Source: Amycolatopsis pithecellobii
Lineage (GTDB): Bacteria; Actinomycetota; Actinomycetes; Mycobacteriales; Pseudonocardiaceae
Direction of reading: 5' to 3'
DNA: 64,000 nucleotides
Assembly: GCF_009707865.1 (NCBI RefSeq)
Contig: NZ_WMBA01000003.1
Coordinates: 1 to 64,000 of the forward strand
This document shows positions 39,746 to 59,917 of the stretch, one piece after another. The notes under the pieces were generated by a model. That model saw only the letters and a program-made list of their open reading frames with translations, ran no database searches and was not told the origin of the DNA. Every line of letters starts with the position of its first letter. The stretch's first letter is position 1. The translations under genes and the position numbers were made by a program.

Positions 39746-40375
39746 GTGCCGCGTACGCAGAAAGAACGAAACGAAGAGACCCGCCGGGCACTCTTGGAGG
39801 CGGGGAGCTCACTGCTGCGCGAAGTCGGCTACGCCCGCACCTCGGTCGCCCAGATCACCCAGCGAGCGGGCCGGGCGCACGGGACGTTCTACCTTCATTT
39901 CGAGAACAAGCGACATCTGGTGTCGGTCCTGCTCGACGACATGGCCGAGGAGGCCCGGCGGCATGCTCGTGAGATCTGGCGCGCCGCACCCAGGGTCGAT
40001 GCGATCTGGTTGGGGCTCCGGGACTTCCTCGCACTGATCACACCCGAGCGCAGTCTGTGGTTGTTGGTCGAGGAGGTGGTGGCGCTCGAAGAGGACGCGG
40101 CGCCGTTGAGGTCGAGACTCCGGCATCTCTACGTCGAGCCGATCCTGCGGGGTCTCAAGGAGCGCCCGGACGGACTCGTCTCCCGCGCGCCCAACATCGA
40201 GCTGCTGGCGGACCTGCTGGCTTCGATGGGCCTGCACTTCGCCCGGACCGGGAACCTCCCTGCCTCCCCGGACGTCACCGCGCTGCACATGACGGTCGTC
40301 TGGTGCAACGCCGTCGGGCAGCCGATCACCGAAAAAGATCTCGACAATCTGCGCGGCATGTTCGCGGCAAGCTAG
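39746..40375 (+). CDS. TetR-family regulator whose 3' end is duplicated
   Basis: A 209-residue protein with the HTH at about residues 26-54 (TSVAQITQRAGRAHGTFYLHFENK). The GTG start lies three bases after the nitroreductase stop. It closes the operon and may repress it through the TACTGA palindrome at 33949. The last part of the gene (40305-40359) recurs almost unchanged 19.5 kb away, so this gene end may have been the target of an insertion or recombination event. The reading frame is intact. Confidence 0.92.
   Translation: MPRTQKERNEETRRALLEAGSSLLREVGYARTSVAQITQRAGRAHGTFYLHFENKRHLVSVLLDDMAEEARRHAREIWRAAPRVDAIWLGLRDFLALITPERSLWLLVEEVVALEEDAAPLRSRLRHLYVEPILRGLKERPDGLVSRAPNIELLADLLASMGLHFARTGNLPASPDVTALHMTVVWCNAVGQPITEKDLDNLRGMFAAS
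40305..40359 (+). repeat. 55-bp direct repeat, left copy (TetR 3' end)
   Basis: This 55-bp stretch inside the TetR gene matches 59863-59917 with one difference (A versus G). It begins GCAACGCCGTCGGGCAGC and ends TCTGCGCGGCAT. Flanking sequences on both sides differ between the copies. The orientation is the same, so the copies bracket a 19.5-kb segment. Confidence 0.93.
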
Positions 40376-40412
40376 TCCCGCGCGACCGGCGGTTCGCCAA
40401 GGTTGTCCCGGT

Positions 40413-40520
40413 CGCGACCGCCGCAGCCCGGCCAAGACGCCGCAGGACGTGGTACGCAAGATCGTGGCGTTGCGCCGGCGGCATCGCCTCGGCCCGGTGC
40501 AGGTCGCCGGCCAGCTCGGT
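40413..40520 (+). mobile_element. Remnant of an IS481-family transposase
   Basis: A frame from about 40413 reads RDRRSPAKTPQDVVRKIVAL followed by RRRHRLGPVQVAGQLGI. This is the second HTH segment typical of IS481-type transposases and integrases. It has no start codon, no DDE core and no terminal repeats, so it is a dead fragment. It begins 38 bases after the TetR stop, in a 767-bp region without intact genes. Confidence 0.6.
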
Positions 40521-40523
40521 ATT

Positions 40524-40885
40524 CGTGCACGCCACCCCAGCCGCCGGACTGCTCGAGAAGACCGGAATCGGCAGCTGTCTGCATGACTTCCTGGTCCCAC
40601 CACGGCCGCGTTCGCCTGTCTCACCGGGGTCAACCCCGTCCCCGCTCACTGGGAAATACCGTCCGCCACCGCCTCAACCGCGGCGGAGACCGGCGCGGTG
40701 AGCCGTGCCCTGCACATGGCCACCACCACCCGCACGATCGGCGTGCCCACCACGCGCGAGTACCTCCAACGCCGGGCCGCCGAAGGACGCACCACCAAGG
40801 AAATCCGCCGTTGCCTCAAGCCCGACCTCGACACCGCCAACGGCATCCCGAACCCAGCCTGACAGTCATAGGAGCATCCACCGAG
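40524..40885 (+). mobile_element. Decayed C-terminal part of an IS110-family transposase
   Basis: Pieces of the IS110 C-terminal half occur in order but in different frames. They are TPAAGLLEKTGIGS (from about 40531), SWSHHGRVR, AFACLTGVNPVPA, GNTVRHRLNRGGDRR, and SRALHMATTTR then EYLQRRAAEGRTTKEIRRC (to about 40860). At least three frameshifts are needed, and the N-terminal RuvC-like DEDD domain is missing. After the stop, CATAGGAGCATC resembles the 3' flank of such elements. It is an inactive fossil at the left border of the segment bounded by the 55-bp repeats. Confidence 0.75.
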
Positions 40886-40975
40886 CCCACAGCGCAATCG
40901 GGGATCACCACCGATCACCTGGGTGTCCGCGGCGTTTGGCAAGCACAGAAGTAGTTTCGTGAGCCGCGCCGGGGG

Positions 40976-41005
40976 TTGTCACGAGGGCTTCGGTCGCCTT
41001 ACAGT
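40976..41005 (+). promoter_or_regulatory. Promoter of the 41143 operon
   Basis: TTGTCA (40976-40981), 18 bases, then TACAGT (41000-41005), both near consensus. The palindrome CCTAACGTTAGG starts three bases after the -10 box. The same arrangement is found in front of the ThDP enzyme gene. The rest of the 41021-41142 leader shows no further signal apart from the ribosome site. Confidence 0.65.
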
Positions 41006-41008
41006 GAA

Positions 41009-41020: not shown

Positions 41021-41142
41021 CTCGGTCAACGGTGCGGGGACCTGGATCTCTCCGCCATCGCGAGCCACGTGTCCACCCGCCCCCGGCAGGGCTGAGTCCG
41101 TGGTGGAGCGTTGATCCCTTTGGCTCAAGGAGGCGGGCGCAC

Positions 41143-42552
41143 GTGAGTGCTGGGCAGCTTGCGAGACGACTGATCGACGACTTCGAGGGCGACCTCGTCG
41201 GTCCGGACCATCCCGGGTACGAACGGCTGCGAAGGATCTGGAACGGGGACATCGATCGCCGGCCGGCGCTGATCGCGATGTGCCGGTCGGCCGGAGACGT
41301 GGCGCTGGCCGTTCGGTACGCCCGCGAGGCCGGGCTCATGATCGCGGTGCGCAGTGGCGGGCACAGCTACCCGGGGCATTCGGTGTGCGAGGGCGGCGTG
41401 GTCATCGACGTCTCGAGCATGAACCACGTGGATTTCGCTGAGGACGGAACGACGGTCCGCGTGGGTGCCGGGGCTCTGCTGGGTGCGGTCGACACGGCAA
41501 CGGTGGCGCGCGGCCGGGTCGTGCCCGCGGGCATCGTGTCCCATACGGGCTTCGCCGGGCTGGCGCTCGGCGGCGGGATGGGGTACCTGACGCGGTCGCA
41601 CGGCATGACCTGTGATCACCTCACGGGATTCACCGTCGTCACCGCCGATGGAGCGATCATCCGTGCCGACGCGGACAACCATCCGGACCTGTTCTGGGCG
41701 CTGCGCGGCGGTGGCGGGAACTTCGGCGTCGTGACGGAGTTCGAATGTGACAGTTCCCCGATGCCTCCGGTGAGTGTGGGACATCTGCTCTACCCGGCCG
41801 ATCGCGCGCTGGAGATCTTCGAGGGTGTGCGCGATTTCGTCGACGCGGGGCCCCGAGCCTTGAGCGTTCGGCTCGTGGCCGGATTGACCATGCCCGGGCA
41901 GGACGGCGTGGACGAGCGGAACGTCGTGGGCGTAAGGGTGATCTACCAGGGGCAGCCCGACGGCGCGGCGCTCAGCGAGCTGCGACGTTTCGGCGATCCG
42001 GTGCTCGACACCATCGAGGTCTCGAGCTATCTCCAGCTCCAGCGCGAGTTCGACGAGTTCTCGCAGCGTGGCATCGGCTGGTACATGAAGTCAGGACACA
42101 CCCGGAAACTCACCCGGGATGGGCTCGCCGCGATGATCGAGGCGACGCACTCCCACCAGCGGGTGGCGTCCGACCGGGTACTGCGATCGGTCCACTCGAT
42201 CGCGTCTCTCGGGGGCGCGGCGTCCGACGTGCCTGAGATGGCCACGGCCTACAGCGGGCGGGACGCCGGCTGGCATTTCGCCGTCGAGGTCGGTTTCACC
42301 ACCGAGGCGGAGCGTAAGCGCATCGTCGGGAACACGCGGCAGGCGTGGGCGAATATCGAGCCGAACCTCGACATGGCGACGTCCTACGTCAACATGCTGT
42401 TCGAGGAACAGCTGGCGAGCATGGAAAAGGTCTACGGGGCCGAGAAGTTCGCGATGCTGCGCAGGATCAAGACGGCCTACGACCCGGCGAACGTCTTCCG
42501 GCACAACGCCAACATCCCGCCCCTGGAGACCGCGCCCGGAGAATCGCGGTGA
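41143..42552 (+). CDS. FAD-binding oxidoreductase of the berberine-bridge (BBE) family
   Basis: A 469-residue flavoprotein with the FAD_binding_4 domain. RSGGHSYPGHS carries the His expected to bind FAD covalently, and GFAGLALGGGMGYL follows. The C-terminal BBE tail reads YDPANVFRHNANIPP. The second covalent link (Cys) of many relatives is absent; the place reads GIVSHTG. It oxidises an alcohol, aldehyde or ring compound with O2. The GTG at 41143 follows AAGGAGG. The stop overlaps the GMC gene by four bases. Confidence 0.92.
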   Translation: MSAGQLARRLIDDFEGDLVGPDHPGYERLRRIWNGDIDRRPALIAMCRSAGDVALAVRYAREAGLMIAVRSGGHSYPGHSVCEGGVVIDVSSMNHVDFAEDGTTVRVGAGALLGAVDTATVARGRVVPAGIVSHTGFAGLALGGGMGYLTRSHGMTCDHLTGFTVVTADGAIIRADADNHPDLFWALRGGGGNFGVVTEFECDSSPMPPVSVGHLLYPADRALEIFEGVRDFVDAGPRALSVRLVAGLTMPGQDGVDERNVVGVRVIYQGQPDGAALSELRRFGDPVLDTIEVSSYLQLQREFDEFSQRGIGWYMKSGHTRKLTRDGLAAMIEATHSHQRVASDRVLRSVHSIASLGGAASDVPEMATAYSGRDAGWHFAVEVGFTTEAERKRIVGNTRQAWANIEPNLDMATSYVNMLFEEQLASMEKVYGAEKFAMLRRIKTAYDPANVFRHNANIPPLETAPGESR

Positions 42553-44075
42553 AACCACACTACGACGTCATCGTCGTCGGTTCGGGATCAGCCGGGGGAG
42601 TCGTCGCTTCCCGCCTCAGCGACGATCCATCCCGGACAGTTCTCCTCCTGGAGGCCGGCGAAGCGTACGGATCCCAGGACGAGTTCCCGGAGCGGCTCCT
42701 CGACCCACGTCAGTCCGCCGTCATGCCTGGACAGCCCGGGGTCTGGCGCCGGGTCACGACCTTGCGGCCGGGATCGACGGCGCACAGCGGGACGGGCAAG
42801 GTCCTGGGCGGCACGAGCTCGGTCAACGCCGCCTACTTCATCCGGGGCTTGCGGGCCGACTTCGACGGCTGGGCGAAGCTGGGAAACACGGAATGGTCCT
42901 ACGACAAGGTCTTGCCGTCCTTCACGAAATCCGAGAACGACGCGGACTTCCATGACCGGTGGCACGGCTCCGGCGGACCGATCCCGGTCCGCCGAGAGGC
43001 CGAGGACCGGGCGCCGGAGTTCATCGCCGCCTTCCGGGAAGCGTGTCTGGGGCACGGTTTTCCCGAAGAGGCCGACAAGAACGGCGATCAGGCACCGGGA
43101 GTCGGCCCGGTTCCGCTCAACATCGGCGGGGGAGTACGTGTCGGCAGCGCGCTCGGATATGTGCTGCCCCGTCTCGGCCGGGAGAACTTCGACGTGCGTG
43201 GCAACGCGCACGTGGTGCGGCTGCTGGTGTCAGGCGGCCGGGCAACTGGCGCGGAACTGCTCCTCGATGGCACACGGACGACCGTCCACGGCGAGGAGAT
43301 CATCGTCGCGTGCGGCGCATTCCGGTCGCCGCAGCTCCTCCTGTTGTCCGGGATCGGGAGGGCTGAACAGCTTGCGGCGCACGGGATTGACGTCCGGGCC
43401 GACCTGCCGGGCGTGGGACGAGGACTGCACGCACACCCCGGCGTTGTCGCGCCGTTCTCCCTGCGGAACCCGATCGAGAGCCCTGCGGGCCGGGGTGCCA
43501 TGGCGTCTGTGCTCCACTGGTCTGCCGATGGCTCGAAAGGACTCGACGACCTGGAGATCCTCCCGTTCATGAGGACGACAGTCGAGGCAGGCGACGCGCT
43601 CGGCTCGGCCGTGCTCGCCGTCATGAACGAGGACTCTCGAGGCTGCGTCACGCTCGCCTCGGCCGATCCCGAGGACGAACCGAACGTCGACTTCGACTTC
43701 CTCCGGACGCAGCATGACGTGAAACGAGGCCGAGAGCTCGTGCGCACGTTCTTCGACCTGTTCAATTCACCGTCGATGCGCGGTATCGGCGCCGCAACGA
43801 TAGGTCTGGACCGGGAAGACGTGCGAGACGCCCAGCTGCTCGACGCCTGGGTCAAGACACATCTCACGCACGGTGCCCACGAGGCCGCCACCTGCCGGAT
43901 GGGGCCCGATTCCGATCCCATGGCCGTCGTGGACCAGTTCGGACGTGTCAAGGGCGTCGAAGGCCTTCGCGTCTGCGACACCTCGATCTGGCCGACGACT
44001 CCCTCGCGGGGCCCGGCCGCCACGGCGATCATGACGGGCGAGCACATCGCCGCCTTCATCGAGGCCGGGCAGTGA
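42549..44075 (+). CDS. GMC-family oxidoreductase resembling MftG
   Basis: A 508-residue FAD protein with VIVVGSGSAGGVVASRLS at the start, LLLEAGEAYG, and the GMC signature KVLGGTSSVNAAYFIRG. GSGGPIPVRR, VGPVPLNIGGGVRVGSALGY and the C-terminal HEAATCRMG follow. The order and wording recall the mycofactocin-associated GMC protein MftG (Rv0697 type), though I cannot run the comparison. As there, the residue before the second Pro of the active site is Gly (SRGPAAT). MftG-like enzymes re-oxidise mycofactocin. A mycofactocin-type SDR is 4.5 kb downstream. Start is GTG at 42549. Confidence 0.9.
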   Translation: MKPHYDVIVVGSGSAGGVVASRLSDDPSRTVLLLEAGEAYGSQDEFPERLLDPRQSAVMPGQPGVWRRVTTLRPGSTAHSGTGKVLGGTSSVNAAYFIRGLRADFDGWAKLGNTEWSYDKVLPSFTKSENDADFHDRWHGSGGPIPVRREAEDRAPEFIAAFREACLGHGFPEEADKNGDQAPGVGPVPLNIGGGVRVGSALGYVLPRLGRENFDVRGNAHVVRLLVSGGRATGAELLLDGTRTTVHGEEIIVACGAFRSPQLLLLSGIGRAEQLAAHGIDVRADLPGVGRGLHAHPGVVAPFSLRNPIESPAGRGAMASVLHWSADGSKGLDDLEILPFMRTTVEAGDALGSAVLAVMNEDSRGCVTLASADPEDEPNVDFDFLRTQHDVKRGRELVRTFFDLFNSPSMRGIGAATIGLDREDVRDAQLLDAWVKTHLTHGAHEAATCRMGPDSDPMAVVDQFGRVKGVEGLRVCDTSIWPTTPSRGPAATAIMTGEHIAAFIEAGQ

Positions 44076-44124
44076 CCACTTGGAACTACACGGCAATCCA
44101 CACCGGTTCAGTTGAGGAGTTCGC

Positions 44125-45159
44125 ATGTATTCAGGGAGAAGGATCGCGGTCGAAGAGGGCTATCTGACGCAGCGGGCCAGCGATCTGGCACGCCAGGTTT
44201 ATGCCTCGGAAGAGGCGCGGCAGCTGGGGACGGCTGATGCCCTCAGCCAGGTTTTCCTGCCGGGCATCACGGAGGAACGCTGGGCGCGCAACATGGACCT
44301 CGGCGAGGGGCGCATCGCTGTGATGGACGAGGCGCGGCTCGACATGCAACTCCTGGTTCTGTCGTATCAGGGCAGCCAGATGCTGGACCCGGCCCACGCG
44401 GTGGCGGAGGCCCGGGGCATCAACGACGAGCTTGCGGCCGCGGTCCGTCGTTATCCGAGCCGACTGGCGGGACTGGCTTCGCTGCCGACTTCGCATCCGG
44501 AGGCGGCGGCGGTGGAGCTGGAGCGTGCCGTGCGGTCACTCGGTCTGCGGGGCACGGTCATCCACTCCCACACTCGGGGCGACGAGTGGCCCCAGCGCGG
44601 CATCTACCTGGACGAGCCCGAGATGTGGCCGATCTTCGAGGCGGCGGAATCGCTGCGCGTCCCGGTCTACCTCCACCCGAGCCAGCCTTCCCCGCAACTG
44701 GTCCGGGCCTTCACGCAGTACGGCATGATGGGCCCGATCTGGGGTTACAACGTGGAGGCCTCGACCCACCTGGTGCGCGTCATCCTGTCCGGGGTCTTCG
44801 ACATCTTCCCGGAGCTCACCCTCGTGGTCGGCCACCTCGGCGAAGGCATTCCCTTCTACTTCGAGCGGCTCGACGCGGCGTATGCGCAGTCCAACCCGAA
44901 GCAGCGGCTGAAGATGCCCCCCAGCGAGTACTTCCGGCGCAACATCTATCTGACCACCTCCGGGATGAACTCCGCGGCAGCCCTTCCGTTCTGCATCGAT
45001 GTGCTGTCGGCTGACCGCATCATGTTCGCCGCCGACTACCCGCAGGACCCGAGTCCGCTGGCCGACGAAGTCGCCGCGATGGATCGGCTCGAGATCACCG
45101 ACGCGGAGAAGGCGGCCATCTTCAGCGGCAACGCCGAGAAGGTCTTCGGGCTCGTATAA
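44125..45159 (+). CDS. Amidohydrolase-2 (ACMSD/gamma-resorcylate-decarboxylase-like)
   Basis: A 344-residue TIM-barrel protein starting RRIAVEEGYLT, the place where resorcylate decarboxylases have ALEEH. Further landmarks are RLAGLASLPTSHPEAA, VPVYLHPSQPS, LVVGHLGEGIPFYFERLDAA and IMFAADYPQDP, with the metal ligands. The family decarboxylates aromatic acids or hydrolyses related compounds without oxygen. The change of His to Gly in EEGY may remove one metal ligand. It lies 49 bases after the GMC gene and precedes the double TetR. Confidence 0.9.
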   Translation: MYSGRRIAVEEGYLTQRASDLARQVYASEEARQLGTADALSQVFLPGITEERWARNMDLGEGRIAVMDEARLDMQLLVLSYQGSQMLDPAHAVAEARGINDELAAAVRRYPSRLAGLASLPTSHPEAAAVELERAVRSLGLRGTVIHSHTRGDEWPQRGIYLDEPEMWPIFEAAESLRVPVYLHPSQPSPQLVRAFTQYGMMGPIWGYNVEASTHLVRVILSGVFDIFPELTLVVGHLGEGIPFYFERLDAAYAQSNPKQRLKMPPSEYFRRNIYLTTSGMNSAAALPFCIDVLSADRIMFAADYPQDPSPLADEVAAMDRLEITDAEKAAIFSGNAEKVFGLV

Positions 45160-45196
45160 CATCGCTCAGCAAAGGCACGATCCGGAAAGGCGGCAA

Positions 45197-45250
45197 ATGA
45201 ACGGTCTCGACCTCGAATGCCGCCCTGGGCCTGGCAGTATCGATGACTAA
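45197..45250 (+). CDS. Possible 17-codon upstream ORF overlapping the double-TetR start
   Basis: ATG at 45197 follows GGAAAGG and encodes MNGLDLECRPGPGSIDD, ending TAA at 45250. The ATG of the TetR gene at 45243 lies inside the last codons in another frame. The ribosome site of the small frame is better than that of the regulator, so translation of the regulator may depend on termination of the small frame. No homologues are known to me; it may be fortuitous. Confidence 0.35.
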   Translation: MNGLDLECRPGPGSIDD

Positions 45251-46559
45251 GCGACTCTCGCAACCTCGCGAGGTCAGCGACAGGGTCCGCGGGGTGCGTA
45301 GTGCCCGGGGGCAGCGGACGATCGACGAGATCACCCGGTCAGCGGACAAACTCTTTGCCAGTCAGGGATACTTCAGTACGACCGTCGAGGACATCGCCAA
45401 AGAGGCGGGTCGTTCGTCCGCCGCGGTGTATCAGTACTTCGACAACAAGGCCGCAATTCTGGAATTGCTGAGCGAGCGGTTGGTGGATTTCGCCGGCCCG
45501 CGTGCGCTGGAACGTATTCCGCTCCCTGAGAACGAGTACGACCACGCGGCTTTCGTCCGGGCGGCGGCGGGCTTTTGGCAGACCTACCTGACCTTCAAAG
45601 GGGTCATGGTCGCACTCTTTCAGCTGTCCACGGTGGACGAGCGATTCGCCGGGATCGAAAAGAAAGTGCGCGCGGTCGGCCACCAGGTCTTCGGCATTTT
45701 CCTGGCCCGGGCCCGAGAGCACGGTTTCGCGAATGACGTCGACCAGAAGCTGACCCCCGTTCTGATCGACGTCATGAACGAGCATTACCGATTCATCTCC
45801 TCGGGTCACCTGATCAGCCCTGATCGACAGCCCGAGAGCTTCGACGAGGTTTCCGTGCTCGCCGCGATCTGGTATCGGGCGTTTTACGCCGTGCCCCGCG
45901 AGCCGATCGTCCATGTTCCCCTCAAGCGCTCCAGAAAGGCACGCAAACCTGCCCGGTCCGAGGGCAAGGAGCTCTGGGCCGCGGCCGGCCGGCACGTATT
46001 CGAGCAGAAGAGCTTCCTCACGGCCGGAGTCAGGGACATCGCCGAGGAAGCCGGCATGTCCCTCGGCGCGTTCTACAACTACTTCGACACCAAAGAAGAT
46101 CTGCTGCTTCATCTGGCCGAGGAGTTCAACGACACCATCCTGCAAGGCCTCCGGTTCCCTGACGAGCCGGGGTCGATGCGGATCAGTCGCCTGGTGACCA
46201 CACTGTGGCGGACTTACACGGAGAACCGGGCCGTCGTGCACGGCATTTTCCAGTTGTCGATGCTCGACAGCGAGTTCGCGGCCGACTGGCGTCGCACCCG
46301 CCGGCCGGTGGTCAAGCTGATTGAAGACCACGTGATCCAGGCGGAGGCGGACCGCGGCGGAAATGACCTCGATGCCGCGGGGGTCGCCGAGGCGCTGTGG
46401 TCGATGCTCGAACACTGCGCGTATCTGTGGGGTACGCGACGGTCGGATCTGATGGTGGGCGCGGTATCGGAGGCCGAGCTTTGCCGCGCCATGTCGGACT
46501 TGTGGTACCGAGTTCTCCACGGAGTGCTCCCGCCTGACGGGTTGCTATCTGTGCTCTGA
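45243..46559 (+). CDS. Tandem (double) TetR-family regulator
   Basis: A 438-residue protein made of two complete TetR units. The first HTH is at about 46-70 (TTVEDIAKEAGRSSAAVYQYFDNK). The second is at about 258-282 (AGVRDIAEEAGMSLGAFYNYFDTK). Each has its own helical effector domain, including the paired FQLS motifs (ALFQLSTVD and GIFQLSMLD). The linker is basic (KRSRKARKPARSEG). One chain could bind one palindrome. The likely targets are the two CCTAACGTTAGG sites in front of this operon and the next. Confidence 0.93.
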   Translation: MTKRLSQPREVSDRVRGVRSARGQRTIDEITRSADKLFASQGYFSTTVEDIAKEAGRSSAAVYQYFDNKAAILELLSERLVDFAGPRALERIPLPENEYDHAAFVRAAAGFWQTYLTFKGVMVALFQLSTVDERFAGIEKKVRAVGHQVFGIFLARAREHGFANDVDQKLTPVLIDVMNEHYRFISSGHLISPDRQPESFDEVSVLAAIWYRAFYAVPREPIVHVPLKRSRKARKPARSEGKELWAAAGRHVFEQKSFLTAGVRDIAEEAGMSLGAFYNYFDTKEDLLLHLAEEFNDTILQGLRFPDEPGSMRISRLVTTLWRTYTENRAVVHGIFQLSMLDSEFAADWRRTRRPVVKLIEDHVIQAEADRGGNDLDAAGVAEALWSMLEHCAYLWGTRRSDLMVGAVSEAELCRAMSDLWYRVLHGVLPPDGLLSVL

Positions 46560-46633
46560 CGGTGGCACCGGGCGACGCCGCAATGCGGCTGTGACCACTC
46601 CTTATGGCACTCCTGGGTGATGCCGGACCGCTC

Positions 46634-46662
46634 TTGCATCGCGGTGTGATGGCGGTTATAGT
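46634..46662 (+). promoter_or_regulatory. Promoter of the ThDP enzyme / SDR / ABC importer operon
   Basis: TTGCAT (46634-46639), a 17-base spacer and TATAGT (46657-46662) form a near-consensus vegetative promoter. It is followed five bases later by the CCTAACGTTAGG palindrome. It faces the operon 46801-59630, where gaps between genes are short, so it may drive all of it. Confidence 0.7.
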
Positions 46663-46667
46663 CCGAA

Positions 46668-46679
46668 CCTAACGTTAGG
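46668..46679. promoter_or_regulatory. Operator CCTAACGTTAGG, copy 2
   Basis: A perfect 12-bp palindrome at the expected transcription start, identical to copy 1 at 41009. The identical 15-base context GAACCTAACGTTAGG makes chance very unlikely. It links the two promoters into one regulon. Confidence 0.78.
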
Positions 46680-46800
46680 ATCGGACGTGGCGGCGGCGCG
46701 CCGCTTGGTCCCGATAACGACTCACTCTTCGCCCCCAGGGGCAGGACCCTCGGGCCGCCCTCGGCGGCTGAAAATGTGGCACTGCAAGGGAAAGGCTGCA

Positions 46801-48573
46801 ATGGACACCGAAGTGACGGACGTGCAGGAGACGATCGCCGCTGCCCAGGACGGGCGGGAAGCGATCGGTGTGGCGCTGCGCGACGCCGGCGTCGAACTCG
46901 TCTTCGGCTACCCCGGGGGCGGTGCCTATCAGATCCTGGACGGGATCCTGAGCGCGGGAATCCCGAATATTTCGGCACGCACCGAGCTGAGCGCGGCCTG
47001 GATGTCGTACGGATACAACCGCATGCGCCGGCGTGCTTCCTCGGCGTGCTTGTTCCACGTCGTGGGCACCCTGCACGCCGTCCCCGCGCTCTACGCGGCC
47101 AAACAGGACTCCAACCCGCTGCTGGTCATCGACGCGAACCTCGCCAGCGCTCTGGATATGCGGGAGGCCCTCCAGGAAGGCGAGGAGGTGTACTCGTCGA
47201 TGAAGCCGCTCACGAAGTACATCCGGCGCGTGGTCACGGCCGATGACTTGCCGCTGGCCGTCCGGCAAGCCGTCACGGCGGCCAGCACGGGACGCTTCGG
47301 CGCGGCGGTTCTCGACGTGTACTCCCAGGTGATGACGCAGCCGATCGTCGCCGCGATCGAGCCTCTCGTCCTGCCTGAGCCGCCCCAGGCGGCATCGGCG
47401 GGTATCGACGACGTCATCGAACTGCTGAATTCGAGCGAGCGGCCGGTGATCATCGCCGGCGCGGGCGTCCATCTCGCCGATGGCACGGCACAGCTCGCGG
47501 AGCTCGCCGAGAAAACCGGTGTGCCTGTCGTCTCGACGGGACGGGGTGGGCGAGGTGTCCTGTCCGACGACCATCCGCTGTATGCCGGGCCCATCGGTTC
47601 CTTCGGCTGGACATCCGCGAACGAAGTCGTCCAGCGTGCCGACCTCTGGATCGCGGTCGGCACGTCCTTCTCGCAGATCAGCACAGCCGCCTGGACGCTG
47701 GACAAGCCGTCGAAGATCGTCCATATCGACATCGATCCCGGTCAGCCCGGCAAGATCGTCCAGCCGACGATCGGCCTCGTCGCTGACGCACGGTCGGCCT
47801 TGGCGCAGCTGAACAGTGCGGCCCAAAAGCGAGACCTGCGTCAGCGCACCGAGGGCCGCTCGATGGTCGCCGCGGCAAAGCAGGCGTGGTACGAGGCCTA
47901 CCGGTCGCGCTACGACGGGTCCGAAAAGCCGATGACCCAAATGCACCTGATCGACGTGCTCAATGCGGAACTGCCGGCTGACGCCATCTGTATCGGCGAC
48001 TCGGGAAGCAATGCCTTCTTCATTTCCCGTGGCCGCCACTTCGGCGCCGATTGCCCGCCGGTTCCCAACGGACCGAGATATCAGTCGCTGGGCGCGAGCC
48101 TGCCCATTGCCATCGGCACCAAGCTCGCGCTTCCGGACAAGACTGTCGTGAGCTTCCACGGTGACGGCGGGTTCTACTACGACCTGATGGAACTGGCCAC
48201 GCTGACCCACCACGGCATCAAGGTCATCATCGTGATCGACAACAACGGGTGCCTGATGGCCAACCGTTCAGGCATGGCAAGCCTGGGTATGCGGGAAGAA
48301 GTGGCCGCCTGGACCGAACTGCCGCCGACCGACTTCGTCGGCGTGGCCGCCGGAATGGGGGTCGACGGCGAGCGGGTCGAACATCCGGAGGATTTGGCCG
48401 CTGCTGTGCGTCGCGCGCTCGATGCCCCGGGTTCCTACCTCATCGACGTGGCGACCGATCCGGACACGCGGCTCCATCGAGCCGTGCCCAATGTCGTTCC
48501 GATTCTGTCGGATCGTCCGGCCAAGAAAGGCCAGCACACCTCGATCGGTCTCGAGGGATCTTGGCCATGGTGA
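46801..48573 (+). CDS. Thiamine-diphosphate-dependent enzyme (acetolactate-synthase/benzoylformate-decarboxylase-like)
   Basis: A 590-residue protein with the three ThDP domains. The Pyr domain has FGYPGGGAYQ and the catalytic Glu 62 in ARTELS. The middle domain (RPVIIAGAGVHLADG) has the fold of the FAD or ADP-binding region. The PP domain has GDGGFYYD and DNNGCLM, the ThDP/Mg motif. The family carries out 2-oxoacid decarboxylation, carboligation or C-C cleavage. The ATG at 46801 follows AAGGGAAAGG. As first gene of the repressed operon it probably acts early in the pathway; the substrate is unknown. Confidence 0.9.
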   Translation: MDTEVTDVQETIAAAQDGREAIGVALRDAGVELVFGYPGGGAYQILDGILSAGIPNISARTELSAAWMSYGYNRMRRRASSACLFHVVGTLHAVPALYAAKQDSNPLLVIDANLASALDMREALQEGEEVYSSMKPLTKYIRRVVTADDLPLAVRQAVTAASTGRFGAAVLDVYSQVMTQPIVAAIEPLVLPEPPQAASAGIDDVIELLNSSERPVIIAGAGVHLADGTAQLAELAEKTGVPVVSTGRGGRGVLSDDHPLYAGPIGSFGWTSANEVVQRADLWIAVGTSFSQISTAAWTLDKPSKIVHIDIDPGQPGKIVQPTIGLVADARSALAQLNSAAQKRDLRQRTEGRSMVAAAKQAWYEAYRSRYDGSEKPMTQMHLIDVLNAELPADAICIGDSGSNAFFISRGRHFGADCPPVPNGPRYQSLGASLPIAIGTKLALPDKTVVSFHGDGGFYYDLMELATLTHHGIKVIIVIDNNGCLMANRSGMASLGMREEVAAWTELPPTDFVGVAAGMGVDGERVEHPEDLAAAVRRALDAPGSYLIDVATDPDTRLHRAVPNVVPILSDRPAKKGQHTSIGLEGSWPW

Positions 48574-48600
48574 CGCGAAGCTACACCTGAAAGGAAGCTC

Positions 48601-49401: not shown

Positions 49402-49453
49402 CTCGAGCGGATGTCGTCACCGAGGCCGACGTGTCAGTAAGGGAGTAAATGCA

Positions 49454-52310: not shown

Positions 52311-52315
52311 CAGCT

Positions 52316-53983
52316 ATGTCGATCGACCCGTGGGAAGGACGTTTTCCACGCCATGACCCGTCGGCGGCGGAAACCTACGTCAAAGCGGGGGCCTGGACTG
52401 ACGCCACCGTATCGCAGCGATTCCGCGGCATCGCGGAGCGTTATCCGGCACGCCTCGCCGTCGTCGGACGCGACACGTCCTACACCTACGCCGAGCTTGA
52501 CCGGCGAAGCGATCAGGTAGCGGCTGCGCTTCGTGAAATCGGCCTCGGCCCCGGAGATGCGGTCCTCCTGCAACTCGGCAACACCGCCGAAGGGGTGCTG
52601 GCCTTCTACTCCCTGCTCAAGGCGGGGACGGTGCCGGTCGCCACGTTGGCGTCGCATCGGACCCACGAGCTGCGGCATATCGGGACTGTCGCCGGTGCTC
52701 GTGGCCATCTGGTAGACACGAGCGTCAGCAATGGCGAGCTCGTCGGCCTCTCACATGCGGCGTCCTCGTACCTGCCGGCCCTCGAACACCGGCTCTGTGT
52801 TGGTGAAGCGGCACCGGGTTTCCCCCGCATCGGCGAAGCGGGTCTGTCCATTCCGGACGAGGTCGTTCGCGCCACGGTCGACGACATTCAGGCGCGGATC
52901 GATCCGCGATCGGTCGCGGTGCTCCAGCTTTCCGGTGGCACCACGGGAACCCCCAAAGTCATTCCCCGGCTGCACGCCGAGTACTGGAACAACGGTCTGG
53001 ATGTCGCGAAGACATTGCGGCGCGACCATCGGTCGGTCGTTGCGCATGCGATGCCGTTCGTGCACAACGCCGGCGTGGTGCACGCGTTGTTCGGTGCGCA
53101 CGCGGTCGGCGGTTGTTTCGTCGCGGTGCCTTTCGGCCCCGCGGAGTCATCGCTGGATTTCCTCACCGAAAGCGGTGTCACCGACATGATGATCGGCGGC
53201 CCGATGCTTCCGTGGATCGACGACCCGCGGTGGGAGAAACTGTCGGAGACGCTCAAGACAGTGGCCTGGTCCGGCTCGAAACTTCCACCGCGAATCTTCG
53301 ACCGGTGCTCGTCCCTGGGCATGTGGGTCGGGCAGAACTGGGGGATGGCCGAAGGGCCGTATATGACCTCCGAGCGTGACGCGCCGGAGCTTTCCCGGCG
53401 CGACACCGTGGGCAACCCCAACAACCGGCTCGACGAGTTCCGCGTGGTCGATGCCGTGACCGGTGAGGACCTCCCCGACGGCGAGACGGGACGCCTGCTC
53501 TATCGCGGACCGTCGACGATCGCCGGTTATCTCGATGCGGGGCAACACAACGCGGTGGCGGTGAACGGCGACGGCTTCCTCGACACCGGGGATTTGGTGC
53601 GAGTCCTGACGGTCGAGGGCCACCGGTGCCTCTCCTTCGAAGGACGCATGAAGGATGTCATCAGCCGTGGCGGGGAGAAAATCAGCGCGGCGGAAGTGGA
53701 AGAACTACTTCTGCGGCACCCGGATATCGGGGAGGCCGCGGTCGTCGCCATGCCGGACGAGCGGTTGGGGGAACGGGCCTGCGCGTGCGTCGTGCCCTCG
53801 TCGCCCGATTCGGTGCTGACGCTCTCGGTCGTCCTCGAGCACTTCGCGAGGCTCGGTGTCGCCAAGTTCAAGTGGCCCGAGCGCCTTGAACTCGTGCCCG
53901 CGTTGCCAAGGACCCCGACCTTGAAGGTCGACAAAATGCGGCTGCGTGAGCAATTCCGTCCTCTCGAAAGGCAGGAGCCATGA
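52316..53983 (+). CDS. Acyl-CoA/aryl-CoA synthetase (class I adenylate-forming)
   Basis: A 555-residue ligase with LQLSGGTTGTPKVIPRLH, NWGMAEGPYM, the hinge GRMKDVISRGGEKIS and the Lys in TPTLKVDKM. Motifs resemble 2,3-dihydroxybenzoate-AMP ligases and other aryl-acid ligases. It would activate an aromatic or alicyclic acid. The ATG at 52316 follows AAGGAGG. It overlaps the KstD-like flavoprotein gene by four bases, and dehydrogenation of the CoA ester by that protein is a plausible next step. Confidence 0.92.
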   Translation: MSIDPWEGRFPRHDPSAAETYVKAGAWTDATVSQRFRGIAERYPARLAVVGRDTSYTYAELDRRSDQVAAALREIGLGPGDAVLLQLGNTAEGVLAFYSLLKAGTVPVATLASHRTHELRHIGTVAGARGHLVDTSVSNGELVGLSHAASSYLPALEHRLCVGEAAPGFPRIGEAGLSIPDEVVRATVDDIQARIDPRSVAVLQLSGGTTGTPKVIPRLHAEYWNNGLDVAKTLRRDHRSVVAHAMPFVHNAGVVHALFGAHAVGGCFVAVPFGPAESSLDFLTESGVTDMMIGGPMLPWIDDPRWEKLSETLKTVAWSGSKLPPRIFDRCSSLGMWVGQNWGMAEGPYMTSERDAPELSRRDTVGNPNNRLDEFRVVDAVTGEDLPDGETGRLLYRGPSTIAGYLDAGQHNAVAVNGDGFLDTGDLVRVLTVEGHRCLSFEGRMKDVISRGGEKISAAEVEELLLRHPDIGEAAVVAMPDERLGERACACVVPSSPDSVLTLSVVLEHFARLGVAKFKWPERLELVPALPRTPTLKVDKMRLREQFRPLERQEP

Positions 53984-55668
53984 GCACACCCAAGTCCGTG
54001 GAAGAACTCGCCGGTCCCTACGACTTCATCGTGCTCGGGAGCGGGGCGTCAGGGCTGACCGGTGCCCTTGTCGCTGCCATCGGCGGGGCGCATGTCCTGG
54101 TGCTGGAGAAGTCCGGACTTGTCGGTGGCACCACCTCGATGTCCGGTGGTGGCGTGTGGATCCCCGGCAATCGGCACATGGGTGAAGTCGGGGTCGAGGA
54201 CAGCCGGGAGGAGGCGCTGGCCTATCTCCGCGCGTGTGCCGGGCCGACGGGCGACGACGAACACATTGTGGCACTGGTCGATCACGGTCCCAGGATGATC
54301 GAGCTTCTCGAGGACCAAGGGGGTGTCGCCTTCGAGGCGTGGCCCGCGATCGGCGGAACGATCGACTACCGCCCCTGGCTTCCCGGCGCCAAACATGGTG
54401 GCCGGGCTTTGAACAGTCTCCGGATCCCGCTGGCCGAACTGGGGGAGTGGGGTGCCAGGCTGCGCAAGGAACCCGCATCGCGGTGGCGCGTCAATCCCCT
54501 CGACTATTACTCGAAGGAAATGCACCTGATGCGCCCGGTTCCCGAGTCCGGGGGAGGAGGCGGATGGGGGGCGATCAACGCGCTTTCCCTCGGCGCGGCC
54601 GACGAACAGGAAGAGGCGTACGGGCGCGGCACGGGGCTCATCGCCCACCTGCTTCGCGGTGCCCTGAACCATGGCGTTCACGTCCTCACCGGCACCCCGG
54701 CGACGCGGCTCGTGGTCCAGGGCAATCGGGTGGTGGGTGTTGGCGTTGGTGAGACGGAAATCGAAGTCCGCCACGGCGTGCTGATCGCCACCGGCGGGTT
54801 CACCAACAACGAGGAACTGAAGCGGATGTGGCTTTCGCGGCCACTGGAGTTCACCTGCGACATCGAGTCGAACCAAGGAGACGGTCACCTGATGGGCGCC
54901 GGTATCGGGGCTCAGCTGGCCGGCCTCGGTGACGCGTGGTGGATGCCCCATCTGCAGCTCGGCGGCGAGGCCGGGGTCGTGAACGCCGGCGGCAGCCGCG
55001 AAGACCGGATCCTGCCGCACACGCTCATCGTCAACAGCATGGGCCGGCGGTTCATGAACGAGGCGACGAACTACTACGACGCCGGCGAATACTTCGGCAA
55101 CAGGGTAGGAGCCGCACCCCGGAACTTCCCCGCCTGGTTCATCTTCGACCAGCAAGGTGTGGAGCGATACGCGCTGTTGGCTTGGAAACTGCCGCAGGCC
55201 GGGCAGCCCGCCGAGTTCCTGAAGGTCGGCGAGACGGTTGAGGACCTGGCGCGGCAAATCGGACTGGACCCAGGCGTTCTGCGGGGCACGATCGATCGGT
55301 TCAACGGATTCGCCAGAACGGGTGTCGACGAGGAGTTCCAGCGCGGGGGCAACCCGTGGGACCTCGCCTGGGGAGACCCCGAATGCAGGCCGAATCCCTG
55401 CTTGGGAACGCTGGAGAAAGGCCCGTTCTACGCCATCCAGGTGCTGACCGGCGCCTTGGCGACCCGGGGAGGGCTCCGCGTGAATGCGCGTGCCGAGGTG
55501 CTGGCTGCCCAAGACGGCAACCCCATCCCTGGACTCTATGCCGCCGGCAACTGTTCGAACGGCGGCCCGGCCGGCACCTACGCGGGCCCGGGCTCGACCC
55601 TGGGCGCAGGGATGACCTTCGGCTACCTCGCGGCCCAGCAGGTTGTTGCCGAGATCGCCGCGACCTGA
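53980..55668 (+). CDS. FAD-dependent dehydrogenase, 3-ketosteroid-delta1-dehydrogenase/fumarate-reductase-like
   Basis: A 562-residue flavoprotein with FIVLGSGASGLTGALVAA at the N-terminus, VLEKSGLVGGTTSMSGGGVWIP, and the C-terminal GLYAAGNCSNGGPAGTYAGPGSTLGAGMTFG in parts. This layout is typical of KstD and related enzymes that introduce a ring double bond next to a ketone. It may dehydrogenate an alicyclic ketone. It starts inside the stop of the ligase gene and precedes the Gfo/Idh gene by 15 bases. Confidence 0.92.
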   Translation: MSTPKSVEELAGPYDFIVLGSGASGLTGALVAAIGGAHVLVLEKSGLVGGTTSMSGGGVWIPGNRHMGEVGVEDSREEALAYLRACAGPTGDDEHIVALVDHGPRMIELLEDQGGVAFEAWPAIGGTIDYRPWLPGAKHGGRALNSLRIPLAELGEWGARLRKEPASRWRVNPLDYYSKEMHLMRPVPESGGGGGWGAINALSLGAADEQEEAYGRGTGLIAHLLRGALNHGVHVLTGTPATRLVVQGNRVVGVGVGETEIEVRHGVLIATGGFTNNEELKRMWLSRPLEFTCDIESNQGDGHLMGAGIGAQLAGLGDAWWMPHLQLGGEAGVVNAGGSREDRILPHTLIVNSMGRRFMNEATNYYDAGEYFGNRVGAAPRNFPAWFIFDQQGVERYALLAWKLPQAGQPAEFLKVGETVEDLARQIGLDPGVLRGTIDRFNGFARTGVDEEFQRGGNPWDLAWGDPECRPNPCLGTLEKGPFYAIQVLTGALATRGGLRVNARAEVLAAQDGNPIPGLYAAGNCSNGGPAGTYAGPGSTLGAGMTFGYLAAQQVVAEIAAT

Positions 55669-55683
55669 GCAGCGGGAGGGAAA

Positions 55684-56781
55684 ATGACGGAACCTCTCCG
55701 CCTTGGGGTCATCGGTGCGAATCCGGAAGCAGGCTGGGCATCAAGGGCCCACCTGCCCGCGGTGCAGGCCCTGGCCGAGATCGACCTCGTCGCCGTCGCC
55801 ACGACCCGCACGGAAACGGCCGAGGCCGTCCGCGAGGCGTACGGCGCGCGGCGAGCCTATGCCGGCGCCCTGCTGCTGCTGAAAGATCCCGACGTCGAGG
55901 CGGTGACCATCGCCGTCAGGGCACCAAGCCACCGCGACCTGGTGGAGCAGGCACTCATGGCCGGCAAACACGTCTACTGCGAATGGCCTTTGACGACCGA
56001 CACCTCCTCCGCTTCGGCGCTGCAACGGCTCGCGACCGACCGCGGCCTGGCGACGATGATCGGCCTTCAAGGCGCGCGAGCATCGCCGATCCGGGCGGTG
56101 GCGGCCATGATCGCCCGGGGTGAGCTCGGCAGGCTCCTGTCCGTCAGCGTGCACGCTTCCCACGCGCTGGGTGGCCTCCGGCTGCCATTGTCGAAGACCT
56201 ATCAGGCCGATGCCGCCAATGGCGCGAACGTGCTGATGATCACCGCTGGGCACTCGCTCGACACCATGTGCGCGGTTGCCGGCGAGATCGCGGAGCTGTC
56301 CGCGACCGTGGCGACGCGGCTACCGGATATCACGGTCGTCGAAACCGGTGAGACCATCCGGGCGACGAGCCCCGACGAGGTCTCGATCACGGGAACCCTC
56401 GAGAACGGCGCGGTGCTGACGGCCCACGTCCAGCGCGCGCTGGCGCACGACCCGAAGGGGTTCACGCTCGACGTGCGCGGGGAGCTCGGCGCCATCTGCA
56501 TCTTCGCCAGCCCCGGTGTCCACAGTGGAACGATCGAGGTCCTCCATGTCGACGGGACCGGCGAACACCGGGTCCTGTCGCCGTCCTCGCCGGCAGATGT
56601 GCCGACCGGGCCGCCGAGGTTCATTGTCCCGATGTACCTCGACTTCGTCGAAGCCGTTCGGACCGGCGAACGGGTGGGCCCGGACTTCGCCCATGCGGTT
56701 CGCCGTCATCGGTTGCTGGACTCGATCCTCGCCGCGGCGGCAACAGGTGTCCGGCAGCCGGTTCGCGTCCCGTCTCACTGA
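55684..56781 (+). CDS. Gfo/Idh/MocA-family protein with EWP in place of EKP
   Basis: A 365-residue protein with the Rossmann motif LGVIGANPEAGWASRAHL and the C-terminal alpha/beta domain (LLSVSVHASHALGG). The conserved EKP motif, whose Lys is catalytic in most members, reads CEWPL. That form is also known from the Gal80-like branch, which binds NAD(P) but is not always an enzyme. A role in binding or in an atypical redox step is possible. The start follows GGGAGGGAAA. Confidence 0.88.
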   Translation: MTEPLRLGVIGANPEAGWASRAHLPAVQALAEIDLVAVATTRTETAEAVREAYGARRAYAGALLLLKDPDVEAVTIAVRAPSHRDLVEQALMAGKHVYCEWPLTTDTSSASALQRLATDRGLATMIGLQGARASPIRAVAAMIARGELGRLLSVSVHASHALGGLRLPLSKTYQADAANGANVLMITAGHSLDTMCAVAGEIAELSATVATRLPDITVVETGETIRATSPDEVSITGTLENGAVLTAHVQRALAHDPKGFTLDVRGELGAICIFASPGVHSGTIEVLHVDGTGEHRVLSPSSPADVPTGPPRFIVPMYLDFVEAVRTGERVGPDFAHAVRRHRLLDSILAAAATGVRQPVRVPSH

Positions 56782-56789
56782 GGAGAAAC

Positions 56790-57566
56790 ATGGTGCAGCA
56801 CAGAGTGGGACTGATCGTCCCGAGTTCCAACGTGACGGTGGAGACCGAGTTGCCGGCGCTGCTGCGTCGCCAGCCGGGCACGGAATTCACCTTCCACGCC
56901 TCACGGATGCGGATGACCGCGGTCACGCCCGCCGGACTGGCGGCGATGAATGTGCAGCGGGAGCGCTGCGTCATCGAGGTCGCCGACACTGGCCCCGACG
57001 TGATCCTCTACGCCTGCCTCGTCGCCTTGATGGCCGGTGAAGCCGGCGAGCACCACCGCGTTGAAGCCCTCATCGCCGAGCAGCTCGCGACGGGCGAGTC
57101 GCGCTCTCTTGTGCGATCGAGTGCCGGTGCCCTGGTCGAGGCCGTCAAGGTACTGGGGGCGAAGCGCATCGCCGTTGTCACACCCTATCTGAATCCGCTG
57201 GCCGAAAAGGTCGTCCGATACCTGGAGCACGAGGGCGTCGAAGTGGCGGATTTCCGTGCGCTCGGTGTCGAGGACAACCGTGAAGTCGCTTGTATCCCCG
57301 GAGACCGGGTCATCGGAGCGGCTCGGTCACTCGACCTCACCGGCGTGGACGCACTCGTTCTCTCCGCGTGCGTCCAGATGCCATCGCTGGACCTGATTCA
57401 GCAGGTAGAACACGAGTTCGGCCTGCCCGTGTTGAGCGCAGCCACCGCAGGAGCCTTCAGCATCCTGCGGAGCCTGGGTATCCCGTCCAACATCGCCGGC
57501 GCGGGAAGTCTCCTGGCGTCCGGGGACCGTCACTACACCAGCGCCGAGTTGGAGTCCGCACGATGA
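56790..57566 (+). CDS. maiA: Maleate cis-trans isomerase
   Basis: A 258-residue Asp/Glu-racemase-superfamily protein. The N-terminal RVGLIVPSSNVTVETELP and Cys 76 (LYACLVALM) and Cys 194 (LSACVQMPSL) agree in number and setting with the two catalytic Cys described for Nocardia maleate isomerase. It converts maleate to fumarate without a cofactor. Its presence suggests that the pathway makes maleate or a substituted maleate, as in nicotinate or gentisate degradation. It starts eight bases after the Gfo/Idh stop and overlaps the VOC gene by four bases. Related arylmalonate decarboxylases are an alternative. Confidence 0.85.
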   Translation: MVQHRVGLIVPSSNVTVETELPALLRRQPGTEFTFHASRMRMTAVTPAGLAAMNVQRERCVIEVADTGPDVILYACLVALMAGEAGEHHRVEALIAEQLATGESRSLVRSSAGALVEAVKVLGAKRIAVVTPYLNPLAEKVVRYLEHEGVEVADFRALGVEDNREVACIPGDRVIGAARSLDLTGVDALVLSACVQMPSLDLIQQVEHEFGLPVLSAATAGAFSILRSLGIPSNIAGAGSLLASGDRHYTSAELESAR

Positions 57567-58201
57567 AGCACCTCGTCCAGGGCGTCGACCACGCCGCATT
57601 CCCGACGTTCGATCCTGCCGGGACAGTCAAGTTCTACCGGGACGTCCTGGGTTTCCCGGTTGTCCATTCGATCTGCGCCGCCGGCTGGGGACCGGAGAAG
57701 CACCCGGACTTCATCCACTTCTTCTTCGACATCGGTAACAGCGACCGCATCGCGTTCTTCTACTACTTTGGTCTGGACCAGCCTGGCCCGGACCGGCGGG
57801 GAGACGCCTACGCTCGCTTTGACGACAGCGTGCCCGGGTTCTTCATCGGTTCGAGGCACCTCGCCCTGCACGTGGGTTCTGAGGACGATCTCAACGAATA
57901 CCAGCGCCGGCTCGACGCGAGCGAATGGCCGACCGAGATGCGCGTTCAGCACGAGACGATCGAGTCGATCTACACGCACGATCCGAACGGGTACATCCTG
58001 GAGATCACCCGTGCACTGCGTCCCGTCACGGTCGAGGAGGACATCGACGCCGCACTGACGATCGACGCTCTGGTCGATATCGCCGCCGGTCCGGCTCCGT
58101 CCTTGGATGCGCTCCTCACGCGCAAGGCCGAGCTCATCGTCGAGCGTGGCGACCGTTGGGACGAGCTGCTCGTCCCCGCCCCGGAGGAAGGCAGCCGCTG
58201 A
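57563..58201 (+). CDS. VOC-family (glyoxalase/extradiol-dioxygenase-like) protein
   Basis: A 212-residue protein with a VOC fold. It has an N-terminal VDHAAFPTFDPAGTVKFYRDVLGFPVV with the metal His 10, then HLALHV and YTHDPNGYILEIT with the matching His and Glu. The extra C-terminal 60 residues are helical. It may be a dioxygenase, isomerase or lyase with a divalent metal. The ATG at 57563 overlaps the isomerase stop. The next gene shares one base with its stop. Confidence 0.88.
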   Translation: MKHLVQGVDHAAFPTFDPAGTVKFYRDVLGFPVVHSICAAGWGPEKHPDFIHFFFDIGNSDRIAFFYYFGLDQPGPDRRGDAYARFDDSVPGFFIGSRHLALHVGSEDDLNEYQRRLDASEWPTEMRVQHETIESIYTHDPNGYILEITRALRPVTVEEDIDAALTIDALVDIAAGPAPSLDALLTRKAELIVERGDRWDELLVPAPEEGSR

Positions 58202-58446
58202 TGCCGTCGCTCTTCGTGCTCGCCACTCCCGAAAACCGTCCCGTGGTCGAGGTCGCCGAACGGGACGCCGACGTCTCGGTCCATCGCTCCGGGCCGTATT
58301 TCGTGCTGGCCTCTGCCGAAGGATTCTCCATCGACAGGCGGGCGACCGGCTGCCGGCACGCGGTGTGGTACAGCTGCGTGGCCGGCCTGTCCGGGTTCCG
58401 CATCGAAGGCTGGGACAAGGACTCACTACGGCTGGCGGTGCGGTGA
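58201..58446 (+). CDS. Small conserved-looking protein of unknown function (81 aa)
   Basis: The frame from the ATG at 58201 (TGATG overlap with the VOC stop) encodes 81 residues, ending in another TGATG overlap with the hydrolase gene. It has short beta-rich segments (LFVLATPENRPVVEVAERD, PYFVLASAEGFSIDRRATGC) and a C-terminal strand (GWDKDSLRLAV). No cofactor motif is visible. Tight coupling on both sides argues that it is real, perhaps a partner subunit of the VOC protein or the hydrolase. Confidence 0.75.
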   Translation: MPSLFVLATPENRPVVEVAERDADVSVHRSGPYFVLASAEGFSIDRRATGCRHAVWYSCVAGLSGFRIEGWDKDSLRLAVR

Positions 58447-59630
58447 TGACTTCGTTCCAGACCGAGGCTCTGCGACTCAGGACGGCAGACGGAGCCTTCG
58501 TCGCGGGACTGCTGCGAACGCCCGAGGGCGGGGCCGGGACGGTGGTCAGCATCGTGCATCCGCGTGAGGACCCGAGCCACCATCCCTTCGCGTTCGAACT
58601 CCTCGAGCGCGGGTTCGCGGTGTGGGTCCAGGGGACGAGATCCGTCAACAACGATCTGCGGCTCCTGCACGAGCAGGCGCTGCTCGATGTGGCGGCTGGG
58701 CAAGCGATGTTGCGCGATCGGGGATTCGAAGCACACGTGACGTTAGGGCACTCTGGTGGCGCGACGCTTTACGCGTACTACCAGGAACAGGCCCGCCTGG
58801 CACCCGAAGATCGTCACACTGCGGCCCCTGACGGAACCAAGGTCGATCTCGGTTCAGCCGACATGCCGATCCCGGACGGCGCGGTTTTCGTGGCGCCCCA
58901 CCCGGGTCAGGGTGTGTTGCTTCAGCGACTGATCGACCCGTCCGTCACCGACGAGTCGGATCCGTGGTCGACGGACCCGGGCCTCGACCCGTACGCCCTG
59001 GGCAACGGCTTCCGGCCGGCGCCAGAGCCGTCGTGCTATTCGCCGGACTTCGTCGAACGGTATCGCGCGGCGCAGATCGAGCGCGTGCGGCGTATCGATG
59101 CCGTCGCCGCGACGGCCGTGGCCACCGCGCGCGAGCACGGCGAGCGGTACCGGGCAACAAAGGACGATTATCACCGGCGCCACTGGCTGGCCGCCAACAT
59201 CATGGTCGTGCACCGCACAGACGCCGACCTGCGTTCCGTTGACCTGTCGATGGATCCGAACGACCGGCCGTACGGTTCCTTGTTCGGCAGCCGGCCGGAT
59301 CTCGGGAACTTCGGGTTCCCCGGCTTCTGCCGGGTCACGACGGCGCAAGCCTGGATGTCGACGTGGTCGGCGACGACCTCGCGGGCGAACTTCGTCCAGA
59401 ATGCCGTCGGCGTCCACTCCCCGGCATTGCTCGTCGAACTCACCGGCGACCAGGGTTGCTTCCCCGCCGACGCACGGGAGATGTACAAAGCCCTCGGCGC
59501 GGACGACAAGAAACACGTCCGCGTCGCCGGCACGCATTTCGGCGGTTCGATCTCGAAAGGTGCACCGACGGGTACCAAGCTCGCCGCCCAGCAGTTCAGC
59601 CGCTGGCTCGAAGAACGCTTTGCTCTCTGA
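58446..59630 (+). CDS. Alpha/beta-hydrolase-fold protein
   Basis: A 394-residue protein with a hydrolase core. It has the early VVSIVHPREDPSHHPF, FAVWVQGTRSV and the nucleophile in LGHSGGATLYAYYQEQ. The long middle insert is rich in charged residues, and the C-terminal part has LLVELTGDQGCFPADAREMY with the acid and RVAGTHFGGS with the His. It has no signal peptide. It ends the catabolic operon and is followed by a strong hairpin. The substrate is unknown; an ester or C-C bond is likely. Confidence 0.85.
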   Translation: MTSFQTEALRLRTADGAFVAGLLRTPEGGAGTVVSIVHPREDPSHHPFAFELLERGFAVWVQGTRSVNNDLRLLHEQALLDVAAGQAMLRDRGFEAHVTLGHSGGATLYAYYQEQARLAPEDRHTAAPDGTKVDLGSADMPIPDGAVFVAPHPGQGVLLQRLIDPSVTDESDPWSTDPGLDPYALGNGFRPAPEPSCYSPDFVERYRAAQIERVRRIDAVAATAVATAREHGERYRATKDDYHRRHWLAANIMVVHRTDADLRSVDLSMDPNDRPYGSLFGSRPDLGNFGFPGFCRVTTAQAWMSTWSATTSRANFVQNAVGVHSPALLVELTGDQGCFPADAREMYKALGADDKKHVRVAGTHFGGSISKGAPTGTKLAAQQFSRWLEERFAL

Positions 59631-59640
59631 ACGGTCCGGC

Positions 59641-59681
59641 CACAACGCGAGGGCGGCGCGATGCGCCGTCCTCGCGTTGTG
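59641..59681 (+). terminator. Strong hairpin after the catabolic operon
   Basis: Arms of 19 bases (59641-59659 and 59663-59681) start CACAACGCGAGG and end CCTCGCGTTGTG, with a single mismatch and a 3-base loop. There is no U-run, as is common for actinomycete terminators. It lies ten bases after the hydrolase stop, and marks the end of the long transcript from 46.7 kb. Confidence 0.85.
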
Positions 59682-59703
59682 CCATGTGCTAGGGGACGGC
59701 ACC

Positions 59704-59862
59704 GTGGACAGCCCTACTGTGATCGACCATGACCTCGACGGCGTGTTCGTGCGAGAAGTGTCGCCGGCGGCCCGGCGGCGAACCGGACATCCACTCGTGT
59801 TCATCCACGGCGGATTCCATGGCTGGTGGGCGTGGGAAAGCTGGCAGTCGTACTTCGCCGGC
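59704..59862 (+). pseudogene. Truncated alpha/beta-hydrolase gene
   Basis: From a GTG at 59704 (AGGGGAC upstream) the frame encodes VDSPTVIDHDLDG, then HPLVFIHGGFHGWWAWESW, the N-terminal strand and HGG oxyanion motif of an alpha/beta hydrolase. Homology stops after about 53 residues exactly where the 55-bp repeat begins. The rest of the enzyme, including the nucleophile, is missing. The frame runs on through unrelated sequence, so it is a broken gene at a recombination junction. Confidence 0.7.
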
Positions 59863-59917
59863 GCAACGCCGTCGGGCAGCCGATCACCGAAAAAGATCTC
59901 GGCAATCTGCGCGGCAT
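59863..59917 (+). repeat. 55-bp direct repeat, right copy
   Basis: 54 of 55 bases match 40305-40359. In the TetR frame it would read RNAVGQPITEKDLGNLRG and then stop after IRN. It sits between the broken hydrolase and the SRPBCC gene, with no TetR gene attached. Region 59631-59964 holds nothing else apart from the hairpin, the hydrolase remnant and an unassigned leader for the SRPBCC gene. Confidence 0.93.

Follow-up and report, generated by a model that had tools for sequence, protein, structure and literature searches.

The 64-kb window (the whole stretch of DNA that was analysed, 64,000 nucleotides) carries two directly repeated copies of a sequence from the 3′ part of a TetR-family regulator gene (Table 1). 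The left copy lies inside the coding region of an intact TetR gene. The right copy, 19,558 nt further along, lies between the 5′ remnant of a hydrolase-like gene and a small gene, with TetR sequence on neither side, and most of the interval between the two is taken up by a cluster of catabolic genes.

Table 1. Features at and between the two repeat copies, with their positions in the window
Feature	Position	Strand	Basis or remark
TetR-family regulator gene, intact, donor	39746..40375	+	TetR_N by Pfam
Left repeat copy, inside the TetR coding region, donor copy	40302..40359	+	Both flanks match the G007 orthologue
IS110-family transposase-like fragment, downstream of TetR	40604..40828	+	blastn
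Catabolic gene cluster	41143..59630	+	Pfam and NCBIfam
Long hairpin past the last cluster gene, possible terminator	59641..59681	.	Self-complementary, 88% over 41 bp
Hydrolase-like gene, 5′ remnant of 52 codons, cut at the putative scar	59704..59859	+	53% identity to a 296-aa G015 protein
Right repeat copy, probable filler in a scar	59860..59917	+	Derived base at the sole core mismatch; TetR sequence on neither side
Small gene, 119 aa, right of the putative scar, 47 bp past the repeat	59965..60324	+	Pfam family not recognised

The repeat is 58 nt long and 97% identical. In the TetR gene its last base lies 16 nt before the final base of the stop codon (40375). A 55-bp core (40305–40359 and 59863–59917) had been reported in the first-pass annotation, and its copies are indeed 98.18% identical with a single mismatch. 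When direct repeats of at least 28 nt were listed using a seed of 15, the 64-kb window contained four families in all, the other three only 66–83% alike. A wider scan covered 484 kb of the 7.9-Mb genome (224 kb of contig 78 and 260 kb of contig 56) and produced three pairs that were 35 bp or longer and 92% or more identical, one of them the TetR-end repeat. The remaining two have their copies much closer together, one being an overlapping tandem repeat of 96 bp (97% identical, spacing 74 bp) at 99178–99347 in contig 78 of the same genome (G000) and the other a direct repeat of 209 bp (99% identical) at 33816–34024 and 35518–35726 in contig 56, 1,702 bp apart. When the whole genome was searched with the left copy as query (E ≤ 0.001) only the two places were found and there was no third copy, and the right-hand region used in the same way gave 15 matches at E ≤ 0.5, none of which was an additional copy of the repeat. 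The pair is not due to chance. An assembly error was also considered, and a simple misassembly is disfavoured by the right copy having a base change of its own.

The product of the intact TetR gene has its nearest relative in G007, a genome of the same genus, where the orthologue is 88% identical. The rest of the genus (17 of the 18 other genomes searched) contained distant TetR matches only. Among the 16 loci recovered in a genome_contigs search, three were close, with orthologues that are 76–79% identical in Streptomyces pseudovenezuelae, Catenulispora pinistramenti and Umezawaea tangerina, and no relative was found in viral_contigs. The operon next to the TetR gene (34030–39069) is an 86% match to G007. 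The orientation of the TetR gene relative to this operon varies. In G007 the two lie side by side and divergent, in Streptomyces and Catenulispora they are divergent and 3.7–3.9 kb apart, and in Umezawaea the TetR gene converges with the first gene, whereas in the window (34030–40375) it is codirectional and downstream, behind a nitroreductase gene. Elsewhere in the window, 27486–28418 encodes a 310-aa protein in which an HTH_3-type domain precedes TetR_N and TetR_C_24. Downstream of the TetR gene, the IS110-like fragment matched 10 plasmid records at approximately 70–80% identity in blastn, and 8 of the 10 are annotated with an IS110 family transposase under the match.

The enzymes of the catabolic cluster, as assigned by Pfam and NCBIfam, include FAD oxidases, mycofactocin-linked dehydrogenases, a TPP enzyme and an AMP-ligase. 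An NMT1/ABC importer, an arylmalonate-decarboxylase-like protein, a glyoxalase-like protein and a 507-aa protein with no Pfam match are also encoded. The gene at 42585–44075 was identified as an MftG-type mycofactocin dehydrogenase (417.5 bits, cut-off 387.45) and that at 48601–49401 as a mycofactocin-coupled SDR (370.9 bits, cut-off 300), and the presence of this pair suggests mycofactocin-dependent oxidation. A 438-aa double TetR regulator with two TetR_N stretches is encoded at 45243–46559. The hairpin that follows the last cluster gene was not reported by the terminator scan.

The core of the cluster is found elsewhere. In 11 of 11 relatives' loci, selected from the top Amdase hits (a match was present in 54 other genomes of 396 searched) and so not a random sample, the genes for the Amdase-like, glyoxalase-like and 507-aa proteins followed the window's order inside roughly 5 kb, and an AMP-ligase gene was within the same 20 kb. 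At E ≤ 1e-6 neither the cut gene nor the small gene had a match in these 11 loci, and no TetR there scored above 70 bits. A twelfth locus is from the window's own genome, where another Amdase gene is near a contig end and is without the rest of the module. At the DNA level, the segment 40376–49400 had only distant matches in the 18 other genomes of the genus, the best at 71% identity (E ≤ 1e-20). The region is a mosaic. The possibility of relatives sharing the gene order in a form free of the repeats had been raised beforehand, and it is borne out in a weak form only, in that the core module occurs without the TetR gene or the flanking genes.

To the right of the cluster, the start of the cut gene is near 59704. 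A homologue was found in one of 248 other genomes of the order at E ≤ 1e-6, namely the protein in G015, and Pfam did not recognise the 52-codon remnant. The first-pass annotation described the right copy as cutting a hydrolase gene. The cut, after approximately 52 codons, is present, while the name hydrolase comes from the one 53% match in G015, the fold being named by eye. The small gene beyond the repeat had been labelled SRPBCC, which Pfam did not confirm. Its homologues, with 47–58% identity, were found in 4 of 60 other genomes searched, and no TetR orthologue was detected in those four loci (3.3 kb each) at E ≤ 1e-8.

To determine which copy is in its original setting, the sequence on each side of the repeat was compared with the G007 locus. 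Over the 30 nt past the repeat the left copy matched G007 at 24/30 positions and the right copy at 5/30, and among 63,900 window positions only one reaches 24/30, which is the left copy's own. Over the 30 nt ahead of the repeat the left copy matched at 30/30 and the right at 10/30. At the single core mismatch the left base is the G007 base and the right base is derived. The left copy encodes a C-terminus, MFAAS, that resembles those of all four orthologues (MFATN, MFAAG, MFAAGSA and KFAAG), where the protein continues beyond the repeat and ends as it does at the left copy; the right copy would end IRN. G007 is the sole orthologue close enough for comparison of the DNA flanks, and the other three lend their support at the protein end only. 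Because the flank matches, the mismatch base and the C-termini all side with the left copy, it is, on these sequence comparisons, the donor, and the right copy the recipient, an isolated fragment. The two copies in the window differ at 1 of the 55 core positions, whereas the window and G007 differ at 8 of 55, so that the copying looks to be later than the split between them.

This result bears directly on the suggestion in the first-pass annotation that a segment had been inserted into the 3′ end of the TetR gene in the manner of an att duplication. The duplication of an att site by an integrative element leaves direct repeats at the ends of a segment, one of them at the 3′ end of a gene. The repeats in the window are of att-like length and likewise bracket a segment, with one copy within a gene 3′ end. 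However, an insertion would displace the native flank to the right copy and, as it is found at the left, the att-like reading is not supported. A target-site duplication and a displaced native gene end are rejected by the same comparison with G007. Moreover, the repeat stops before the stop codon and the C-terminus at the right copy is unlike those of the four orthologues. The earlier statement that no integrase is present agrees with our finding of none among the 39 proteins given to Pfam, which cover the main interior genes rather than every ORF. Site-specific integration into the TetR 3′ end is thus very improbable, and the 19.5 kb between the copies is, on this evidence, not an inserted unit. 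The evidence points to the other possibility named at that time, a recombination scar, in which the right copy received the sequence. If the scar reading is right, the case also carries a caution, namely that direct repeats around a gene cluster, even where one lies within the 3′ end of a gene, are not necessarily the marks of an insertion. An inserted element and a scar can be separated by comparing the sequence past each repeat with an orthologue.

A search for an empty site covered the loci of all four TetR orthologues, with 80 kb from G007 and 20.6 kb from each of the other three, and found none. At E ≤ 0.01 the small gene, the cut gene and the Amdase, glyoxalase and 507-aa genes were all without a match in these loci. 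Joined flanks were absent from every locus fetched in the TetR, small-gene and cut-gene searches and in the searches of the genus with the DNA of 59640–64000 and 40376–49400. This outcome proves neither reading, and the flank comparison is independent of it. The G+C content per 2 kb is alike inside (0.633–0.684) and elsewhere in the window (0.632–0.716) and is uninformative.

The explanation that we consider probable is a scar left by end-joining repair of DNA, in which the right copy would be 58 bp of filler copied out of the nearby TetR gene. A break or a collapsed fork would have occurred in the stretch that separates the hydrolase-like gene from the small gene after it, and most of the hydrolase-like gene would have been lost (about 220 codons, judged against the G015 protein). 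End joining would then have sealed the ends and set between them a 58-bp copy of TetR sequence from 19.5 kb upstream. We infer end joining as the agent, a single step and the extent of the loss. The copied locus remains intact, the left TetR gene being in its native flanks, and both junctions of the right copy are foreign to the donor, as the low scores against G007 on its two sides indicate. Sequence has been lost at the recipient, where the gene is cut after 52 codons and the one homologue found is 296 aa long. The genome also contains predicted homologues of end-joining genes, with Ku at two loci and six matches to the LigD polymerase domain, five of them over the curated cut-off. Relatives of the LigD polymerase need not all be repair enzymes.

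Scars of this type have been recovered from Streptomyces ambofaciens after induced breaks (PMC5869714). Three scars contained insertions, of which two (42 and 83 bp) came from near the break and the third was 30 bp out of a transposase gene. Five insertion events were counted in all, ranging from 30 bp to 18.8 kb, the deletions were estimated at 191 to 23,591 bp, and half of the scars had 1–6 nt of microhomology. The structure in the window is similar in having a short insertion of genomic sequence, 58 bp here, together with loss of neighbouring sequence, in the nearby origin of the insertion (as in two of the three there) and in the presence of Ku and LigD-type homologues in the genome. It differs in that the S. 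ambofaciens scars were induced with I-SceI and sequenced (PMC5869714), whereas here the scar would be natural.

Several observations weigh against a filler scar. Insertions are a small minority in the precedent, three clones where 82 Kan-sensitive clones are reported (PMC5869714). No relative showed an unbroken right-hand site, so that microhomology at the junctions is unreadable, and the scar yielded no second piece of filler, the strongest other match of the region being 26 bp at 92% (E 0.009). In addition, a collapsed tandem duplication accounts at least as well for the direct orientation and for a donor less than 20 kb away.

Such a duplication is the main rival, an unlikely one that we weight at roughly one third of the filler scar. 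A tandem duplication with a short joint can later be shrunk by deletion. Here the unit from 40302 to 59859 would have been doubled, so that at the new joint the hydrolase-like gene ran into TetR at position 40302. Nearly all of the second unit would afterwards have been deleted, with 58 bp left. Template switching in replication, backwards and then forwards, would give the same product. The two copies are on the same strand with the donor upstream of the recipient and less than 20 kb away in a 7.9-Mb genome, as the model requires, and the direct orientation and the novel joint between unrelated genes are also those of a shrunken tandem duplication. However, the second deletion must end only 58 bp past the joint. 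Apart from those 58 bp the second unit is missing, and the whole-genome search with the scar region shows no other trace of it.

Less probable still is that the whole 19.5 kb was captured by end joining, as foreign linear DNA, just downstream of the TetR gene, with the far junction patched using 58 bp from the near break end. The donor sequence ends 30 bp before the blastn similarity to the G007 locus stops (40389) and 245 bp ahead of the IS110-like fragment, and 40376–49400 is without a close DNA match in the 18 other genomes of the genus. Intergenic sequence diverges anyway, however, which makes the similarity boundary weak evidence, and both the four TetR loci, with no empty site, and the uniform G+C content count against a capture. 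If true, this would be a natural case of gene acquisition that is integrase-free and homology-free, a process raised as speculation by the S. ambofaciens authors in the discussion of their paper (PMC5869714).

It is also highly doubtful that the right copy is the leftover of a separate full TetR duplicate. Strong erosion from both sides would leave an internal fragment of 58 bp, but with 1 difference in 55 positions the two-sided erosion must be recent, and it would have to stop at the gene break.

The repeat is genuine, and the structure is in all likelihood a repair scar of an ordinary kind, a modest example from nature. If this is right, it is a small actinobacterial instance from nature of an end-joining scar with filler. 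The repeats make the 19.5 kb deletable, in principle, by rare recombination. An open frame of 206 codons (59704–60324) joins the hydrolase-like remnant to the small gene, passing through the TetR piece in another frame, and this continuity across the scar is probably due to chance.
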